Source: a virus
Direction: 5' to 3' (one strand)
Virus record (IMG/VR): IMGVR_UViG_3300049489_000453
Span: 1-30,999 of that record
Length of the DNA: 30,999 nucleotides
This document shows, piece by piece, positions 1,590 to 20,483 of this stretch. The notes under the pieces were generated by a model. That model ran no database searches and had not been told where the DNA came from. It worked only from the letters and a program-made list of their open reading frames with translations. The number at the start of each line of letters is the position of its first letter. Within the stretch, counting starts at the first letter, position 1. Both the position numbers and the translations under genes were made by a program.

Positions 1590-1828
1590 TAGACATTAAT
1601 ATACTTGACAGACTTAAGAACCAGCTTGCAGAATACACAGTAAAGATCGAGAAGACAGAACAGGAACGAAAAGACCAGATGGCATCTTATAAAGAACTGA
1701 TCAAAGATTATAAGACCAAGCAGAAAATTATTGCTGAATCTATTTCTTGTAACGATCTTGAACCTATCTTAAATGAACTCGGACCGCACGCGCTGTCTAT
1801 TTTAGGACTAAAAGACGATGGAAATTAA
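1586..1828 (+). CDS. small coiled-coil protein, unknown function
   Basis: This encodes 80 residues. Its ATG overlaps the amidase stop, and its end overlaps the methyltransferase start (1818) by 11 bases, so it is translationally coupled on both sides. Residues 5-55 are strongly helical with many Lys, Glu and Gln in a coiled-coil pattern; the rest is a short, more hydrophobic helix (ILNELGPHALSILGL). There is no signal sequence or membrane segment, so an Rz-like spanin role is unlikely despite the neighbouring amidase. Function unknown. Confidence 0.7.
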   Translation: MIDINILDRLKNQLAEYTVKIEKTEQERKDQMASYKELIKDYKTKQKIIAESISCNDLEPILNELGPHALSILGLKDDGN

Positions 1829-3050
1829 GTGCAGCTATACGGAACTACGAGACCCGCTAACCCTGGTCGCTAATCCTAGGAACTCGAACAAGCATCCTAA
1901 GAAGCAAATCGAGCAACTTTCTAGGATTATGGCGGCCAACGGATTCAGGTCGCCTATAGTTCTTAGTAAACGGTCAGGCTTTATAGTCAAGGGCCACGGC
2001 CGACTACAGGCGGCCATCCTTGGCGGGTGGAAACAAGTCCCGGTCGATATCCAGGAATACGAAAACGAAGCGGCAGAGGTCGCCGACCTTGAGGCTGATA
2101 ATAGAATCGCTCTTTTAGCCGAGATCGACGACGAGCTCTCAAAAGTAAACGCAATGTTTTTGCTAGATAATAATTACGACCTAGATTTTGGTGGGTTTGA
2201 TTTTGATTTTATAAAAGATTTAGATAAACAAGAAGGCGAGAAAAAGGGCAAGACAGACGAGGACGAAATCCCAGAAGTCAAAGAGTCAATTTGCAAAGCA
2301 GGCGACCTATGGCAATTGGGTGAGCATAGGCTTTTGTGTGGGGATTCGACGAACGCGGCAAATGTTGAAAAGTTAATGGACGGGAATAAGGCTGACATGG
2401 TTTTTACTGATCCGCCTTACGGAGATGATCACGCAAGTATGGAGCTTGTTCCTAAAAATGAGAGAAAAGTAAGTCATGATATTATCAAAAAAAGAAATAA
2501 AATCCTTAACGATTCTAACATTGATTTTTTGAAAGACGTTTGCTCTGCGATAAATCCTTTTTTAAATGTTGGTTTTTCTGCTTTTGTTTTCTTCAAATGG
2601 AGCAAATGGGAAAAAATAAAAGAATACTTTAGTGATTTTGGATCTCCAAAAACAGTTTGCGTCTGGGATCGGGATTCCCAAGGGGCAAGCACGTTCAGAA
2701 TTAATCCAGTTCATGAATTTTGTTTTTATTGGGGAACGCTTTCAGATAAAAAAGAAACAGGAAACCTTAGAAACGTTTGGAGATGCCGAAAGGAGCTTGA
2801 GAACAAAGTTTTGCATCCCACGGTCAAACCTATTGAAATAATTGAGATGCCTATAAGAATGTGCTGCGAAAAAAAGCGAATTGTATTGGATGTTTTCCTC
2901 GGCTCCGGCTCAACCCTTATCGCCTGCGAGAAAACAAACCGCAAATGTTACGGCATGGAACTAGACCCGCACTATTGCGATGTTATCATTAAACGCTGGG
3001 AAGACTTTACGGGCAACAAGGCTAAATTAATGTCCAATATAAACGGCTAG
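1818..3050 (+). CDS. ParB-like nuclease domain fused to DNA adenine/cytosine-N4 methyltransferase
   Basis: This encodes 410 residues. Residues 1-95 are a ParB/sulfiredoxin-type domain (N-P-R-x-S ... GFRSPIVLS ... KGHGRLQAA at 58-66), which phages often place before a methylase. Residues 160-400 are an amino-methyltransferase: catalytic DPPY at 198-201, HPTVKP at 333-338, and the S-adenosylmethionine-binding FLGSGST at 360-366 followed by GMELDPHYCDVIIKRW. Catalytic motif before cofactor motif is the beta-class order of N6-adenine and N4-cytosine enzymes. It should methylate phage or host DNA, either to evade restriction or for regulation. No cognate endonuclease is visible nearby. The target-recognition part (about residues 202-332, bases 2421-2813) looks more T-rich than the flanking domains, hinting at domain exchange. 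Two terminators follow. Confidence 0.9.
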   Translation: MEIKCSYTELRDPLTLVANPRNSNKHPKKQIEQLSRIMAANGFRSPIVLSKRSGFIVKGHGRLQAAILGGWKQVPVDIQEYENEAAEVADLEADNRIALLAEIDDELSKVNAMFLLDNNYDLDFGGFDFDFIKDLDKQEGEKKGKTDEDEIPEVKESICKAGDLWQLGEHRLLCGDSTNAANVEKLMDGNKADMVFTDPPYGDDHASMELVPKNERKVSHDIIKKRNKILNDSNIDFLKDVCSAINPFLNVGFSAFVFFKWSKWEKIKEYFSDFGSPKTVCVWDRDSQGASTFRINPVHEFCFYWGTLSDKKETGNLRNVWRCRKELENKVLHPTVKPIEIIEMPIRMCCEKKRIVLDVFLGSGSTLIACEKTNRKCYGMELDPHYCDVIIKRWEDFTGNKAKLMSNING

Positions 3051-3838: not shown

Positions 3839-4177
3839 ATGTTTAAAAAACTAGCTTTTGCTTTATGTATTTCAACGCCTACTTTTGCTGGGTCTACTGC
3901 ATCTTTTAGCCTAAAGCTTGTCGAAAACAACCCAAACCAAGACACAGTCGTTGGATTTTCCTTAGCTCAACCGATTGGATTCGGCTTAGGATATTGGACT
4001 TGGTTAGGGATGGGAACCCTAGGCAATGATATTAAGTGGGTTGAAAATACTCAGGCTTTGGATTTTAGTTTTACCAAAGACGTTAAAATCACCGCTGCGG
4101 TTAAACTTTCAGAAGACATAGCAAGCGAAGACTTTAAAGACGAATACTCTTTAGGCATTAAGCTTAAACTGTGGTAG
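3839..4177 (+). CDS. small exported beta-rich protein, possibly outer-membrane
   Basis: This encodes 112 residues. The first 17 form a clear signal peptide: MFKK, a hydrophobic core, then TPTFA with likely cleavage before Gly18. The mature part alternates polar and hydrophobic residues in strands (TASFSLKLVE, DTVVGFSLAQ, ALDFSFTKD, VKITAAVKLS, YSLGIKLKLW) and ends in an aromatic residue, as outer-membrane beta-barrels do. At about 95 mature residues it would be a very small barrel, or would have to oligomerise. The stop overlaps the glycosyltransferase start by seven bases, so the two are almost certainly co-produced. Function is inferred only: a surface or receptor-modifying partner, or a superinfection blocker. 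Confidence 0.7.
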   Translation: MFKKLAFALCISTPTFAGSTASFSLKLVENNPNQDTVVGFSLAQPIGFGLGYWTWLGMGTLGNDIKWVENTQALDFSFTKDVKITAAVKLSEDIASEDFKDEYSLGIKLKLW

Positions 4178-5619
4178 AAAAATCTAAACATTCCTATCTG
4201 ATTCCCGGTGTCATTAGCTTTGGGCTTTTGACGCTGGGCGCTTATTTTTTCGCGACCTCAAGGCCAGAACTTTATATTTTTGCGCCCTTTTTCGGGGTTA
4301 TTTTTACATATTTGACAATATCTTATGGGATACTTTTTGCCGGTAAAAAATACGTAAAAGCTAAATTTCCTGAGATAAAAGAATTTCCTACCGTTGACGT
4401 ATTTCTTCCCATTTGTGGCGAGAATACCACGATCATACTTGATGCCTGGAGGCATACTTCAAAGCTAGATTGGCCTAAAGACAAGATCAATTTCTACGTT
4501 TTAGACGATGGAAAGTCTGACACGATGATGATTCTAGCGCAATCTTTTGGCTTTCATTACATCCGTAGAGAAGGTAATGAATTCAAAAAAGCAGGAAATC
4601 TTTTAAATGCTTTTAAAAGAACCAATGGCCAGTTTATATTGGTTTTAGACGCTGATTTTGCAGCCAAGCCAAACTTTCTAAAAGAAACCGTCGCATTTAT
4701 GATGAGCGACTCTAAGATTGGCATCGTTCAAACGCCGCAATACTTCGAAGTCAAAGACGATATGAATTGGATAGAAAGGGGATCGGGATATGTTCAAGAG
4801 TTGTTCTATCGGCTTGTACAAACTTCTAGGGATCTTCACGGCGGTTCTATTTGCGTCGGCTCTTGTGCTGTGTATCGTAGGGAAGCATTGGAAAGAGTTG
4901 GCGGCTTCCGGCAAGTGCAACACTCGGAAGACGTATGGACTGGATTCACGCTGGTTAGCAGCGGATACAAAATCAAATATATCCCCGAGAATCTCTCGGT
5001 AGGTAGATGCCCTGACAATTTGAAAGCTTTCTTTAACCAACAATACCGTTGGTGTTCTGGCAGCATGAGCCTTTTGTTTAGTAGAGAGTTTTGGGACTCT
5101 TCCTTAACGAAGATGCAAAAACTTTGCTATTTTAGTGGAATGGCGTATTACATCAGCTCGGCCATAGGCATCTTTCTTCTAAACATACCATCGATGATCA
5201 TTGTGAATTTCTACCCTGAGAACCTTCATTGGTGGAACATGGTTTTTTACGTCCCATCGTTTCTATTTGGCTCAATCGGAGTTTGGCATTGGTCAAATTA
5301 CCCAAACAAAGATTTTGATTTTCTTAAGCTTAGACATGTCAGCTATTACGCTCACTTCTTTGCTTTAAGGGACAAGCTTTTAAACTCGACGATGCTCTGG
5401 GTTCCTACCGGAGCAAGTCATAAGGGAGGCAGTAGATATGCTTCGTTTCTTTGGCTTTGTAGCATTTGGTCTACTTTATGTTTGCTATTTGTGCTCTACG
5501 GCGTGGCGAAGGCTTATGGCCAGGTTCCAACAATTAACTTGATCATGCCAGTATTATTTGGGCTCTTTAACTTTTGGCTGTCAGCTTCTAGCATTCTGAA
5601 TAGAAACCCAGTAAACTAA
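4171..5619 (+). CDS. membrane glycosyltransferase, family 2, processive cellulose/hyaluronan-synthase type
   Basis: This encodes 482 residues from a GTG start overlapping the previous stop. Two N-terminal membrane helices (about 10-28 and 35-57) precede a cytosolic GT-A domain with every hallmark of processive beta-glycan synthases: LDDG at 111-114, LDAD at 159-162 (metal binding), HSED at 251-254 (catalytic base) and QQYRW at 290-294 (acceptor-channel Q-x-x-R-W). Further membrane segments follow (about 320-345, 355-375, 430-450 and 458-478). No PilZ c-di-GMP domain is present, unlike BcsA. It should transfer a UDP-sugar to a growing polysaccharide or a lipid-linked acceptor at the host inner membrane. 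In a phage this suggests altering the host surface, for example serotype conversion or superinfection exclusion, but the sugar and acceptor cannot be read from sequence. Confidence 0.9.
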   Translation: MVEKSKHSYLIPGVISFGLLTLGAYFFATSRPELYIFAPFFGVIFTYLTISYGILFAGKKYVKAKFPEIKEFPTVDVFLPICGENTTIILDAWRHTSKLDWPKDKINFYVLDDGKSDTMMILAQSFGFHYIRREGNEFKKAGNLLNAFKRTNGQFILVLDADFAAKPNFLKETVAFMMSDSKIGIVQTPQYFEVKDDMNWIERGSGYVQELFYRLVQTSRDLHGGSICVGSCAVYRREALERVGGFRQVQHSEDVWTGFTLVSSGYKIKYIPENLSVGRCPDNLKAFFNQQYRWCSGSMSLLFSREFWDSSLTKMQKLCYFSGMAYYISSAIGIFLLNIPSMIIVNFYPENLHWWNMVFYVPSFLFGSIGVWHWSNYPNKDFDFLKLRHVSYYAHFFALRDKLLNSTMLWVPTGASHKGGSRYASFLWLCSIWSTLCLLFVLYGVAKAYGQVPTINLIMPVLFGLFNFWLSASSILNRNPVN

Positions 5620-15761: not shown

Positions 15762-16448
15762 ATGGCTATAGTTTTACCACTTCAACAAGCTAAGACACTA
15801 GGGACGACGACGGTTTTACCCTTAGCCGTTTACACGCCAGAAACTTATATAGTCCCGATTCAAACAATTGGTAATGCTTTCCTATCTAGTCTTGTTTATA
15901 AGTCTGGGTCAGGAACTTTGACGGTTAACTATTTTCAGACGACCGTCGATGATACGACATTCGAGCGAACGGACATTGATTCTCACGCGGTCTTGACCGC
16001 ACCGCAGCCAAATGCAGATCAATTATTGTGCACAAGTATTCATAACAAGCTTTACGCTGAAATTATAATCACAGGTTCTAGCGTAGAGTGCGGCATTATT
16101 GGAACTTGCGTCGATCAATCGAGTACTTCCATAGACGCATTTGTGAAAGACAATACAGATTACAATCTGACGGTTGATAAAGGCTTAATAGGAGCCACGA
16201 TAGACGAGGATACTGGCAAGATTGCCTTCCTTCGATCACGAGATGGGATGTTGTTGACTTATGGTTCTGGCTCGGGCTCAGGAGGTTCGACCATTCCAGA
16301 AAACGCTCACATAGTTTTAAACAAATTAATCCAAGGGCCAGATTCGAGAATTATTTCACGAATCGGATCCAAATTTGCTATAATCAATAATACAACCATG
16401 CAGCAATTAAATGTACCAGCAGGAAACGATCTAATTTTTGAGGCATAA
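15762..16448 (+). CDS. beta-rich head protein, possible decoration or fibre-base protein
   Basis: This encodes 228 residues following the capsid terminator. Residues 1-125 are strand-rich (PLQQAKTLGTTTVLPLAVY, FLSSLVYKSGSGTLTVNYFQ, LYAEIIITGSSVECGIIGT), looking like a jelly-roll or Ig-type sandwich. Around residue 170 comes a flexible Gly/Ser segment (GSGSGSGGS), then a C-terminal strand pair and a short tail. Its position between the capsid and the connector genes is where decoration or head-fibre proteins lie in siphoviruses. No family is recognised. It is followed within three bases by the repeat-containing fibre gene, so the two may form one structure. Confidence 0.65.
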   Translation: MAIVLPLQQAKTLGTTTVLPLAVYTPETYIVPIQTIGNAFLSSLVYKSGSGTLTVNYFQTTVDDTTFERTDIDSHAVLTAPQPNADQLLCTSIHNKLYAEIIITGSSVECGIIGTCVDQSSTSIDAFVKDNTDYNLTVDKGLIGATIDEDTGKIAFLRSRDGMLLTYGSGSGSGGSTIPENAHIVLNKLIQGPDSRIISRIGSKFAIINNTTMQQLNVPAGNDLIFEA

Positions 16449-16450
16449 AT

Positions 16451-17563
16451 ATGAGTGAACATTTAATGGGTATTGGTGCAGTTCCTCCCACGCCACCGGC
16501 TGGGTTTGTAACGCTTTATCCTAAATTAGACGGGCGAGTTTATTCTAAAGATTCAACAGGGAGCGAATCGGCTCTTACTGCACCAAATACTACAGACAAT
16601 TTATCCGAGGGGATCTTAAATAAGTATTTCACGGACGAACGAGCGCAAGATGCTGTCGGCGCTATGCTTGCAGATACGGGGACAATAGAATTTACATATG
16701 ACGATGCAGGGAACGAGATCACGGCCGACATTGTCCCTAATTCTATAACAGATGATGAAATTAATGTAGCGGCAGCGATTGCTTTATCTAAGCTTGCGTC
16801 AATGACTGGTAACAAAGCTGTAGTATCAGACGGTGCAGGAAAGTTAATTCCTTCGACAACAGGCGCGACAGAAATAGGATATGTTGCTGGGGTTACGAGT
16901 CCTATACAAGCGCAGCTCGATTCAAAACAAAATGCTGGAGTGGCAATTTCATCTTTAAGCGGAGACGTTGTCGCAAACGGACCAGGCGCGGCCGTTGCCA
17001 CAATTCAACCTGGCGCCGTCGATAACGCAAAAATTGCAGCTTTAGCCGGTATTGCATTGTCAAAGCTTGCAGCCTTGGCAGCGGACAAAGCTTTAATCTC
17101 AGACGGTAGCGGATTCGTTGCAGCAAGCGCAGTGACAAGCGCCGAGGTTGGTCACTTATCTGGTGTTACCGGAAACGTACAGACTCAATTAAACGGAAAA
17201 CAAGCAATAGGAAATTATCTGACTGCACTCACCGGCGAAGTAACAGCAAGCGGACCCGGTTCTAGTGCCGCGACGATCACAGACGGTGCAGTGACAAACG
17301 CAAAAATTCCAAGCGGTGCCAATATAGAACTTTCTAAGCTTCAAAACGTCCCGACCTTTGTTGAGGCTTACGGCTTTCCTCAAGTCGGCGATACTTTGAT
17401 TCAGATGCTTCAAAAACTAGCCTGGTCTAGTATGCTTCAAAATGATTTAATTTCTGTAGATATGACAATACCAAGCGGTCATACTCTTTTAAGAAGCAAA
17501 ACACAAATTACAGGACTTACGACTGTGACCATTGCAGCGGGCGCAACTTTAAAAGTAATTTAA
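16451..17563 (+). CDS. repeat-containing fibre protein, probable head fibre
   Basis: This encodes 370 residues. The N-terminus has a common phage-fibre entry motif (PPAGFVTLYPKLDGRVYSKD, residues 16-34), followed by NLSEGILNKYFTDERAQDAV (50-69), a frequent tail/head-fibre signature. Residues 96-276 are two tandem ~90-residue repeats with a third partial one to 298. The units share IALSKLA, ALISDGSG, VGHLSGVTG-VQ-QLNGKQ and LTGEVTASGPG-x-AATI. Residues 330-370 resemble one beta-helix rung. Such repeats form trimeric shafts. Its neighbour at 17577 is related. Location between capsid and connector genes suggests anchoring on the capsid, though a tail fibre cannot be excluded. Confidence 0.75.
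   Translation: MSEHLMGIGAVPPTPPAGFVTLYPKLDGRVYSKDSTGSESALTAPNTTDNLSEGILNKYFTDERAQDAVGAMLADTGTIEFTYDDAGNEITADIVPNSITDDEINVAAAIALSKLASMTGNKAVVSDGAGKLIPSTTGATEIGYVAGVTSPIQAQLDSKQNAGVAISSLSGDVVANGPGAAVATIQPGAVDNAKIAALAGIALSKLAALAADKALISDGSGFVAASAVTSAEVGHLSGVTGNVQTQLNGKQAIGNYLTALTGEVTASGPGSSAATITDGAVTNAKIPSGANIELSKLQNVPTFVEAYGFPQVGDTLIQMLQKLAWSSMLQNDLISVDMTIPSGHTLLRSKTQITGLTTVTIAAGATLKVI
16736..17344 (+). repeat. tandem ~90-residue repeats in the fibre gene
   Basis: Units span bases 16736-17005 and 17006-17278, plus a partial third 17279-17344. Each begins with an (S/A)(I/V)(T/D)(D/N)-x-(E/K)I-like segment, then IALSKL, and ends with GPG-x-x-(V)ATI. They are diverged at DNA level, so they are ancestral duplications and not recent slippage. 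Confidence 0.75.
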
Positions 17564-17576
17564 TAAAGGAAATTTT

Positions 17577-18689
17577 ATGTCAAAAGTAAATTTATCAAAT
17601 CAAAGCGCGGCTTCTATCGACATACCGGCGTCTGGGACTACTCAGATTTTTGTCGATACAGACAAGAAAATAAAAACCAAAGACGACACCGGCGCAGTAT
17701 TTGATTACTCGGCAGTAGGAAGCGCAATCACTCAATTGACGGGCGAAGTTACAGCAGGTCCGGGGCCGGGTTCGGTCGGAGCTACCGTTTCAAATGCAGC
17801 AGTTTTAGGAAAAGTTTTAACCGGACTTGTTGCTAGTTCGGGCGTAATTGCGCCGACAGACACTATTTTGCAAGCTTTTAATAAACTAGTTAATAAGCAA
17901 AACGGCGACATTTATCCAAACTTAGGCATGGGCAACACTGTCATCGCAGCAAACACGTCTTTGACTTCAGACTTATACTGCGACACTTTGACGGTAAACC
18001 TTGGCGCAACTTTATTTCCGAACGGCTATCGAGTTTTTGCAAAAACTTCTATCGTTTGCAATGGTACTATTGACCGATCGGGAACAGACGCAGCAGGAAC
18101 GGGAGCGACAGCAGCTTTAACAGCGGGAACACTTGCAGCAGCAGGCGCGGGTGGAGCTGGCGGAACAGCAGCAGGATCAGCGGGCGGTGCATCGGCGGTA
18201 GGTCTAGGCGGATCTGGTGGAGCCGGTGGGGCGACAGGATCGGCGGGCGGCGTAGCCGGTGCCTTTACTCTTAACCCAATTAACTCAGGTTCTGTAGAGG
18301 TATTTTACGATCAGGCAAGAGCGCGATTAGGCTTGAGCCTTACCAATGCACTTATTACTGGAGGATCGGGCGGCGGCGGTGGAGCTGGTGACGGAACCGC
18401 TGGAGGTGGCGGCGGAACTGGCGGCGCTCTTATGGTCTTAGTTTCAAGATCCATAACTGGGACAGGATCGATCGTCGCACGCGGTGGGAACGGGTTCCAG
18501 CCTTTGGCAGGCAACAGAGGCGGCGGAGGCGGAGGCGGAGGCGGCGTAATAGTTACGATTTCAGAGAATGACGTAACAACTAGCGGGCTAACTTTTAACG
18601 TGGCTGGAGGCATAGGTGCTTCTGGTTCTGGTACGGGCGGTTCTGGCCTTAACGGTTCAAACGGAAGAATTTACAACATTATAGCATAA
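17577..18689 (+). CDS. glycine-rich adhesin-like fibre protein, paralogue of the preceding gene
   Basis: This encodes 370 residues starting at an ATG after AAAGGAAA. Residues 14-75 parallel the preceding fibre: an N-terminal IPASGTTQIFVDTDKKIKTK, which mirrors its FVTLYPKLDGRVYSKD, and QLTGEVTAGPGPGSVGATVS, which mirrors its LTGEVTASGPG repeat end. Residues 120-165 look like beta-helix rungs (LYCDTLTVNLGATLFPNGYR, TSIVCNGTIDRSG). Residues 170-370 are extremely Gly/Ala-rich, with runs of five to nine Gly separated by hydrophobic strands (ALMVLVSRSITG, GVIVTISENDV). Such polyglycine sheets are known from T-even gp38 adhesins, where the loops bind receptors. It probably binds the host surface; whether it is carried on head or tail is open. 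Confidence 0.7.
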   Translation: MSKVNLSNQSAASIDIPASGTTQIFVDTDKKIKTKDDTGAVFDYSAVGSAITQLTGEVTAGPGPGSVGATVSNAAVLGKVLTGLVASSGVIAPTDTILQAFNKLVNKQNGDIYPNLGMGNTVIAANTSLTSDLYCDTLTVNLGATLFPNGYRVFAKTSIVCNGTIDRSGTDAAGTGATAALTAGTLAAAGAGGAGGTAAGSAGGASAVGLGGSGGAGGATGSAGGVAGAFTLNPINSGSVEVFYDQARARLGLSLTNALITGGSGGGGGAGDGTAGGGGGTGGALMVLVSRSITGTGSIVARGGNGFQPLAGNRGGGGGGGGGVIVTISENDVTTSGLTFNVAGGIGASGSGTGGSGLNGSNGRIYNIIA

Positions 18690-18699
18690 GGGGCGAGCT

Positions 18700-19086
18700 A
18701 TGCAGTTTGTTCCATTTGTTCCTACACAAGAACAATTATTTGTCATGAATTTGGAAAGAAGTGTCGTAAGTGGAAGACAGGCAGCCGAGCGAGTAATTGA
18801 AAAGTTTAAAAAAAATAATCTAGCAAGGTTTATTCAATCTGGGACAAGTTCCGAACTTTCGTTAATGAAAAGTCTTTGGATGCACCATAGACTCAGAGCG
18901 GTTTCTTTTACGTTTCAAGGCGTAGATTTTACAATAGATCTAATGAATCTTTGTATTTCTGGAGATCTTTCTACAGCGGCATTTATAATGTCACAAGTAA
19001 CTCCGGACGACATGACGCAGCCTTATCATTTTCTTTCTCAAGACGTAATTAATGAGCTAAGAGGAATCATGGCGCAAGAATTATGA
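18700..19086 (+). CDS. unknown helical protein of the head-tail region
   Basis: This encodes 128 residues starting at an ATG after AAGGGGCGAG. It is mostly helical with a short central strand pair (LRAVSFTFQGVDFTIDLMNL). There is no signal peptide, membrane segment or catalytic motif. It overlaps the YiiX-like gene (ATGA at 19083), which implies coupled synthesis and perhaps a partner relationship. It sits between the fibre genes and the connector genes, so it may be an assembly factor or minor virion protein. Function unknown. Confidence 0.65.
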   Translation: MQFVPFVPTQEQLFVMNLERSVVSGRQAAERVIEKFKKNNLARFIQSGTSSELSLMKSLWMHHRLRAVSFTFQGVDFTIDLMNLCISGDLSTAAFIMSQVTPDDMTQPYHFLSQDVINELRGIMAQEL

Positions 19087-19643
19087 CAGCATTATTTTTT
19101 AATTTTGTTTCTATGATAAGTTTTTTTATTTCTAAGATCCATTTGCCTTGGAGTACCTTGAAAATCAAGGCGAATGGATATAGAAGTATTTTAGAGCGCA
19201 TAAGTAACGGGGATATTCTTTTAAGTTACACAGAAGGCGAACTAAGTAACGTATTTATTCCTGGTCAATGGTCACATACAGCGATGTTTTTAGATTCTGA
19301 ATGGATACCAGGAGTTATTGAGGCGACAAGTGAAGGCGTAATCCATACAGATATTATTGATTTTTGTTTAAGCAAAGACAAAATTTGTCTTCTTAGGCCA
19401 ACATTTTTAAGCGAGTCTGAGAAATCGGAATGTTTAAAAAGAGGAGTAAGGCAACTAGGAAAGCCTTACGACTACGCTATGAGATCGGACACAAAAGCGT
19501 TTTACTGTTCTGAATTAATCTGGTACTGTATTAATAACGACAAGTTTACAATGCGAAAAAGACTAGGGCAACTTACGGTTGTACCGGACGACTTTTATAA
19601 AGCACGAACAAAATTTGAGGTGATTTGTGAAATTAGTAAATAA
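19083..19643 (+). CDS. YiiX-like permuted NlpC/P60-type cysteine hydrolase with N-terminal hydrophobic segment
   Basis: This encodes 186 residues. Residues 3-18 are hydrophobic (LFFNFVSMISFFISKI), a possible membrane anchor or uncleaved signal. The domain after it has the circularly permuted papain-like layout of the YiiX/YebB family: GDILLSY at 43-49, WSHTAMFLD (His65) followed by VIEAT (Glu80 near a GV turn), then a helix and the nucleophile block YCSELIWY (Cys142, Glu144). Family members cleave peptide, amide or lipid-ester bonds. Inside a head-to-tail operon it could act on peptidoglycan or lipids during entry, or modify a virion protein. Start overlaps the previous stop; end overlaps the next GTG by 17 bases. 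Confidence 0.72.
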   Translation: MTALFFNFVSMISFFISKIHLPWSTLKIKANGYRSILERISNGDILLSYTEGELSNVFIPGQWSHTAMFLDSEWIPGVIEATSEGVIHTDIIDFCLSKDKICLLRPTFLSESEKSECLKRGVRQLGKPYDYAMRSDTKAFYCSELIWYCINNDKFTMRKRLGQLTVVPDDFYKARTKFEVICEISK

Positions 19644-19857
19644 GACCGGAAATGACATTATCGTTCCAAAAGGCCATACTTACCAAACGGTAAAAAATGG
19701 CGAATCTTTTGAAGTAGCTGAAAAAGATTTGGAATGTCTTAAGTTTCTTTTCCCAAAACTTGAGCAAGAAGCGGCCGTTAATGAGTCTGTAAAACAGGCG
19801 GTAAAAATAGAACCAAGTCTAGGAAAAGACAAAAAACTTAAGGACATCGTAATTTAA
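19627..19857 (+). CDS. small head-tail region protein, unknown function
   Basis: This encodes 76 residues from a GTG start that overlaps the end of the hydrolase gene, with GAGGTGA a few bases upstream. The N-terminal part is strand-rich (KLVNKTGNDIIVPKGHTYQT, GESFEVAEKDLECL), the C-terminal part a charged tail. Its stop overlaps the next start (TAATG). Small proteins with this 'V-N-x-T-x-x-x-I' beginning are common in phage head-tail operons just before the connector, but a function cannot be given. Confidence 0.6.
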   Translation: MKLVNKTGNDIIVPKGHTYQTVKNGESFEVAEKDLECLKFLFPKLEQEAAVNESVKQAVKIEPSLGKDKKLKDIVI

Positions 19858-20483
19858 TGACACTTAATACTAATTCACTTGTAACGCTAAACGACGCCAA
19901 AAAGTGGTTAGACATTGCCCTTTTGAATACGGATCTTGACGAACGAGCCGAGCTGTTTATTAATTCCGCATCTGATATGATCGAGAATTATTTAAACCGC
20001 GACCTTGTGCGTAAAATTAGAACAGAGAGATACGACGGCACGCGAGCCAATAAAATATTTTTAAAAAACTGGCCAGCAGATAAGCCTACGGCTATTTCTT
20101 TTGGTTCTGGCTGGGACTTTTCAGAACTGGTAGACGTAGACAACTACACGATTCAAGACGAAAGCCTTGTCGTTTTTAAGAGCCAAATCACGGGCCGAAG
20201 CACGCAAGGGATTCAAATAGAATACACAGCAGGTTATGTTACACCGCTTAGTCCGGTTCAAACCGGGGTCGTTTTACCAAGTGATATAAAAATGGCCTGC
20301 TTAATGCTTATTTCATGGCTTTGGCAAGTCGACCGAGACCGTCGATTAGGCGTTTCGAATAAGTCAAAACAAAACGAGTCAATCTCTTTTGAGTCTGGAA
20401 TGCCTAAAGTAATTGCAGAAATGTTATCGCCTCATAAGCGACTTGAGTTTACCGGCGTCCACTCTGCAATAGATACGTACTAA
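19857..20483 (+). CDS. head-tail connector (adaptor) protein, HK97 gp6-like
   Basis: This encodes 208 residues. The layout fits phage connector adaptors: an N-terminal helix pair (LNDAKKWLDIAL, ERAELFINSASDMIENYLNR), a central beta region beginning with KIRTERYDGT and LKNWPADKP (the family's R-x-x-Y-x-G then L-x-x-xP-I pattern), then IEYTAGYVTP, LPSDIKMACLMLISWLW, and a C-terminal segment on the basic helix. The protein forms a ring on the underside of the portal after DNA packaging and gives the tail a docking surface. Position ahead of a gp10-like gene is as expected. Coupled to the previous gene by TAATG. Confidence 0.82.
   Translation: MTLNTNSLVTLNDAKKWLDIALLNTDLDERAELFINSASDMIENYLNRDLVRKIRTERYDGTRANKIFLKNWPADKPTAISFGSGWDFSELVDVDNYTIQDESLVVFKSQITGRSTQGIQIEYTAGYVTPLSPVQTGVVLPSDIKMACLMLISWLWQVDRDRRLGVSNKSKQNESISFESGMPKVIAEMLSPHKRLEFTGVHSAIDTY

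Follow-up and report, generated by a model that had tools for sequence, protein, structure and literature searches.

In phages of the T-even type, gp38 is a glycine-rich tip adhesin, and in phage phi29 the gene of the capsid fibre gp8.5 adjoins the capsid gene. Fibres and spikes of the head are also already known as adhesins. In RcGTA, the head spike consists of the fibre rcc01080 on a pentamer of a base protein that holds the N-terminus of the fibre; as told in the available part of the source, the spike binds capsular polysaccharide, and is helpful and dispensable (PMC10218006). The available text on phi29 describes gp8.5 as a trimeric fibre of the capsid, dispensable and thought to aid attachment (PMC7602432). 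Agrobacterium phage 7-7-1 carries long flexible capsid fibres, one per vertex, that act as first-contact adhesins beside the tail fibres; the fibre protein is not identified in the paper, as far as its available text goes (PMC12796354).

Here, we analysed a 30,999-bp IMG/VR virus record (the window, that is, the whole stretch of DNA), in which two genes, A and B, encode fibre-type proteins between the major capsid protein (MCP) and the connector. The original prediction of such a pair was confirmed, with two ORFs of 370 codons each (Table 1). As with gp38, the gene of a putative glycine-rich adhesin directly follows a stalk gene; in contrast, gp38 is encoded at the tail end, and B has its own stalk motif and no detectable match to solved chains. 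We propose RcGTA as an analogue by description, since its flexible fibre is N-terminally anchored on a base protein of the head; however, RcGTA has one fibre, whereas here there is a paralogous pair, and the glycine-rich tip of B is absent from the RcGTA spike in the available description (PMC10218006). The fibres of phage 7-7-1 are likened to A and B by description only (PMC12796354). According to the text available, gp8.5 combines a beta-tulip base with a helix-turn-helix supercoil (PMC7602432), whereas A and B, by sequence, belong to no described family matched in Pfam (0 families at E ≤ 0.1, described head-fibre families included).

The late genes of the window run in the order TerL, portal, S78 protease, MCP, protein C, A, B, a 128-aa gene, Peptidase_C92, gp6-like connector, gp10-like gene, tail tube, tape measure and two tail-tip genes, those without a family match being named from gene order and reading. 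Relatives of the MCP include L002 (64% identity), L004 (61%) and L003 (49%), where L numbers designate the loci and records compared. A and B are separated by 13 bp that contain a Shine-Dalgarno-like AAGGA.

Table 1. Coordinates of the MCP-to-connector region in the window, with the evidence for each feature.
Feature	Position	Strand	Evidence
Major capsid protein (MCP), HK97 type, 454 aa	14327..15691	+	PF05065 E 2.4e-9
Protein C, 228 aa, putative head decoration/anchor protein	15762..16448	+	residues 1-120 predicted jelly-roll; 71-ORF family in fetched loci
A, fibre protein with variable shaft, 370 aa	16451..17563	+	PHROG 16122 E 1.1e-14, strongest over residues 192-290
A N-terminal motif, residues 12-45	16484..16585	+	profile match to B N-terminus, 98.9%
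A shaft repeat 1, residues 108-171	16772..16963	+	repeat alignment vs shuffles
A shaft repeat 2, residues 199-262	17045..17236	+	repeat alignment vs shuffles
A C-terminal unit common to B, residues 252-367 (LTGEVTA, helix DTLIQMLQKL, terminal beta strands)	17204..17551	+	BLASTP and profile comparison
B, putative fibre/adhesin with glycine-rich tip, 370 aa	17577..18689	+	
B N-terminal motif, residues 17-40	17625..17696	+	profile comparison with A
B unit common to A C-terminus, residues 46-146	17712..18014	+	BLASTP and profile comparison
B glycine-rich tip, beta-solenoid-like, residues 147-370	18015..18686	+	AF2 model
128-aa gene directly 3' of B	18700..19086	+	34% identity to L099 protein, likewise directly 3' of B
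Peptidase_C92 (YaeF/YiiX-like permuted papain fold)	19083..19643	+	PF05708 E 2.9e-18
gp6-like head-tail connector	19857..20483	+	PF05135 E 2.3e-7

A consists of the N-terminal motif, the segment LSEGILNKYFTDERAQDAV, two shaft repeats, and a C-terminal unit (residues 252-370) with LTGEVTASGPG, the helix DTLIQMLQKL, and closing beta strands. In B, the shared unit stands straight after the N-terminal motif, and the glycine-rich domain comes last. The original prediction had the shaft repeats of A following the LTGEVTA unit; in fact, they precede it. The LTGEVTA-type motif occurs twice in A, as LSGDVVANGPG and LTGEVTASGPG. The two shaft repeats aligned with a score of 144, and none of 1000 shuffles scored as high.

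The homology between A and B was computed directly. The shared unit is 33% identical (A252-367 against B46-146, BLASTP E 9e-7), and A256-370 aligned to B46-150 with a score of 96 that none of 2000 shuffles equalled; over the whole length, the observed score was reached by 7 of 1000 shuffles, owing to composition. The common N-terminal motif, also part of the prediction, was weak for a single A against a single B sequence (9 of 2000 shuffles), but strong for family profiles built from eight A and nine B N-termini (98.9%, E 1.5e-17). Profiles of the LTGEVTA/helix/beta unit likewise agreed (98.4%, E 7.6e-15), against 0.2% for the mismatched control. Since the profiles share both parts, A and B are, judged by sequence, paralogues in which A lengthens the stalk and B retains a large tip. 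Their equal length of 370 aa is a coincidence, because A spans 183-731 aa in the relatives and B 368-378 aa (complete proteins; B is cut in L110).

Within the A family, direct comparison gave conserved ends and a mosaic, length-variable middle. The shaft repeats, which we take to be the known fibre type xELxYLSGVTSxIQTQLxxK / LTGDVTAxGPG, were matched in 22 of 50,697 phage records and in L018; in the three isolate records inspected, the shaft modules alone were common and the contexts differed. The shaft modules are generic and present in other contexts. The PHROG labels are mixed: 16122 (head), 2012 (tail) and 697 (head) for A, and 13336 (unknown) for B.

The AF2 model of B, from eight sequences, is of low confidence overall (mean pLDDT 57). 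Short strands are predicted at residues 23-43 and a helix at 97-108, followed by confident beta strands at 121-166 (pLDDT 85-91 over 121-170); residues 175-259 fall below 50, with no confident structure, and strands return at 285-369 (mostly 69-89 over 281-370). Foldseek searches with this fold gave eight matches at E ≤ 1e-3 in BFVD, to proteins of uncultured phages and collagen-like proteins of giant viruses, and weak matches only in the PDB (five listed, Z ≤ 4.2, beta-solenoid types by name). The collagen-like proteins among the best viral matches belong to Orpheovirus and Pandoravirus. The B profile matched seven PDB sequences up to E 1, the best at E 0.012, with no phage adhesin by name, and had no match to Gly_rich_2 (PF21722) in Pfam at E ≤ 0.1. 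From resemblance only, we read the tip of B as an adhesin. The earlier description of B as a polyglycine adhesin fits in that the domain is glycine-rich, but it appears beta-solenoid-like rather than plain polyglycine, with a longest glycine run of 9 residues.

The slot between MCP and connector was compared across the capsid family of the window. An MCP alignment found 196 relatives, of which 80 were kept, and the slot count covered the 42 loci with readable MCP and connector, the MCP being called by profile; L037, L039 and L047 are outside the 42 because an opposite-strand ORF masks the MCP ORF. All 30 loci with C directly after the MCP have 3489-6285 bp before the connector, and all 12 loci without C have 50-874 bp between MCP and connector. 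Merged at 97% MCP identity, there are 27 with C and 7 without. Four of the loci without C have 874 bp: L021, L022 and L023 form a single lineage with 64% identity to the window MCP, and L040 is near this lineage. The remaining eight are distant (MCP 26-38% identical in matched segments). C was not found anywhere in the records of L021, L023 and L040, and a search without positive control returned no B-type proteins in L021, L022, L023 and L040.

Direct comparison of the slots, some of them cut by contig ends, revealed their variability. In several pairs, the MCPs are 94-97% identical, yet the slot proteins are 20-46% identical or unalignable (e.g., L027/L033 and L027/L034). L066 and L068 share 96% identity in the first gene of the slot, and all later slot genes are unrelated; the slots of L087/L091 and L054/L066, with MCPs 96-99% identical, are conserved. 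This turnover would be the behaviour of receptor-binding genes. A literature search on head fibres with metagenomic adhesins or hypervariable capsid decoration found no title concerning this slot.

Other contents of the slot were also observed. In L028 (10893-14572) and L033 (8190-11368), it holds an unrelated long coiled-coil-like fibre and a glycine-rich protein. The glycine-rich protein of L028 matches Gly_rich_2 (PF21722, E 1.3e-15); like B, it is a putative glycine-rich adhesin whose gene follows that of a long fibre in the head slot, but it represents a separate glycine-rich family that B does not match. The slot of L041 has a protein read as FN3-like, with no Pfam match, and those of L096 and L098 have beta-rich-looking proteins of about 280/300 aa. 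By eye, slot or tail genes at L092:5145, L096:11387, L098:11432 and L194:1568 open with a signal-peptide-like start, which is odd for virion proteins. Outside the family, L018 (7356-10656) has two fibre-like genes in tandem (651 and 427 aa), flanked by genes read as capsid-like and connector-like; its capsid is unrelated, and the first of the two carries A-type shaft repeats.

The MCP-alignment scan together with B alignments retrieved ten further virus records with full-length or N-terminal B: L047, L099, L100 (identical to L109), L105, L106, L107, L108, L110, L193 and L194. The plain B sequence as query matched no relatives, so that alignments were required; low-complexity filtering of the glycine-rich sequence is probably part of the reason. 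The window B shares 48-62% identity with seven B homologues. The pairing, computed directly, is conserved as predicted: A lies 2-18 bp 5' of B in all ten distinct records that extend upstream of B (the window, L047, L099, L100, L105, L106, L108, L110, L193 and L194, of which L110 is cut), L107 being outside this count because it starts at B.

The flanks of the pair recur as well. A small ORF (57-175 aa) lies 3' of B in all carriers with sequence there (L110 is cut). These ORFs are of at least two sequence types, which may be related (18.6% in the comparison); those of 158-175 aa in L047, L100, L193 and L194 may resemble the 128-aa gene of the window. On the 5' side of A, a protein of 112-189 aa with a QQMLVDGHLTVLGHL-like motif was seen by eye in L047, L105, L106, L108, L110, L193 and L194. 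In L105 (3649-4218), the protein 5' of A has a K1-lyase_C domain (PF24146, E 5.8e-8), which is usually linked to tailspikes.

The expectation of the same pair in the same slot of other phages held for part of the carriers. The pair follows the capsid gene in the window, L047, L099, L100 and L108 (the MCPs of L099 and L100 named from order and reading only, that of L108 matching SU10_MCP), but it is upstream of the terminase in L105, L106 and L193, as is B alone in L107 (the terminases of L193 and L107 identified largely by reading), and 3' of the tail-tip genes in L194. The latter is a distant relative of the window whose capsid and tail genes are of the same type; after its MCP come a 115-aa gene and then the connector, without C and without slot. 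Its later genes run p310, p647, 250, 126, a 1395-aa fibre, 322, 120, 127, A, B, 158, C92-like, 317 and genes read as lysis genes. Since three carriers have P22-like portals (L099, L108 and L193), the cassette seems to cross virion types. It is very likely that A and B form a mobile two-fibre adhesion cassette, whose content is A, B, the small gene and often a C92-like peptidase. Such a portable two-protein adhesin module would be common to siphovirus-like and P22/SU10-like phages.

Most further matches of the B profile (L111-L183) were limited to residues of about 44-110; the 12 inspected were for the most part very long fibres, in varied contexts, and these partial matches were left out of the evidence on head location. 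In the isolate phages of INPHARED (50,697 records), none matched all of B, and only two Rhodococcus records matched, at query residues 44-110. Searches of genome contigs for prophage relatives gave 0 matches with the MCP alignment and one with the B alignment, at residues 54-104 only.

Residues 1-120 of C form a confident predicted jelly-roll (AF2 pLDDT 85-98). Its fold matched the BPP-1 cement, Carin1 capsid and HFTV1 turret chains (E 2e-3 to 5e-3), and many unrelated jelly-rolls scored as well as or better than the cement and turret chains; the fold is that of a generic jelly-roll. Among the other carriers, C is full in L047, and L100 matches its C-terminal part only. We rejected C as a universal anchor of the pair, as it is missing from 7 of the 9 other carriers searched.

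The N-terminal motif profile matched 23 of 2032 ORFs at E ≤ 1e-3: the 17 training sequences, 4 duplicates, and ORFs of L035 and L088, both in the head slot of the window's capsid family. The motif lies inside long fibres in L035 (residues 498-535) and in the tail-end fibre of L194 (residues 721-763). Due to this internal position, its role may be in trimerisation rather than in anchoring.

The original prediction derived decoration of the head from the gene position. The slot after MCP/C is indeed consistent in the capsid family of the window, but the same pair at the tail-tip side (L194) and at the terminase side means that position alone leaves the location in the virion undecided; as proof of a head location, we rejected it on L194. 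For the head, we count this slot, its co-occurrence with C, its variability, the separate tail-end genes of relatives and the motif matches in L035 and L088; against our explanation, besides the positions in other carriers, stand the generic shaft modules, the mixed PHROG labels, the low confidence of the B model and the generic fold of C. We give display on the head in this phage an even chance, and the head rather than the neck or tail is the least certain part of our explanation. That A and B are instead tail or neck fibres with genes in the head block, a mobile cassette whose proteins end up at whichever neck, collar or tail acceptor is present, is a serious possibility that falls clearly short of even. 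It would agree with the place of the cassette in L194 (3' of the tail-tip genes) and in L105, L106, L107 and L193 (upstream of the terminase), its presence in short-tailed phages too, the motif within the tail-end fibre of L194, and the carriers, most of which have no C. However, the capsid family of the window always has the slot between MCP/C and connector when C is present, and relatives with slot genes keep their own tail-end genes: these stand after p647 in L043 and L063, as they do in L021, which has no slot genes. The more specific reading, that jelly-roll C docks exchangeable fibres on the head and creates a hypervariable adhesin slot in a large group of uncultivated phages, is tentative and sits somewhat below an even chance.

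The arrangement of the chains was also weighed. Mixed A/B trimers, as had been suggested, are disfavoured and highly improbable: the N-terminal motif and helix unit are common to A and B, but the shared units are contiguous in B and split by the length-variable shaft in A, so that shafts of very different length would put mixed chains out of register. It is unlikely, though less so, that B is a distal tip adhesin capping the A stalk, in the way that gp38 caps gp37 in T-even-like phages. Such capping would suit the fixed order of a stalk gene followed by a glycine-rich gene, the free variation of A beside a constant B, and the same logic repeated with unrelated sequences in the slots of L028 and L033. 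On the other hand, B itself carries the N-terminal motif found in A, which suggests an A-like attachment and not attachment to A, and its profile matched no solved adhesin.

Instead, we infer that A and B each probably form their own homotrimer, in which the short N-terminal beta motif would be followed by a helix (DTILQAF/xKL) setting the register of the trimer. A would be a stalk of adjustable length with a small beta tip at its end, and B a short stalk tipped with a conserved, glycine-rich adhesin of the beta-solenoid type. Both would most likely be displayed on the head, adjoining jelly-roll C or through it, where they may bind surface polysaccharide or other matter reversibly before the tail engages its receptor. 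Probably, they help the virus to grip surfaces.

If head-displayed, the slot would be a second adhesion system apart from the tail, able to change fully between phages with near-identical capsids, and would be a natural experiment on the purpose of head fibres. Should C dock the fibres, the head would diversify as fast as a receptor-binding tail, as a second and independently evolving adhesion system. The presence of the pair in three genomic places is also a caution against inferring virion location from gene position.

Finally, a Peptidase_C92-type enzyme lies between MCP and connector even in L021, without C and fibres, as it does in the window; the enzyme type was also noted at L184:5119-5688. 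C92-like ORFs 3' of the A/B cassette in L193 (10661-11113), L194 (10592-11152) and L106 are matches of our own profile, and Pfam gave no confirmation. This enzyme type may be a virion or cassette enzyme. Elsewhere in the window, ORFs at 4171-5619 and 1818-3050 resemble, by eye, a membrane glycosyltransferase and a ParB/DNA-methyltransferase fusion, respectively.
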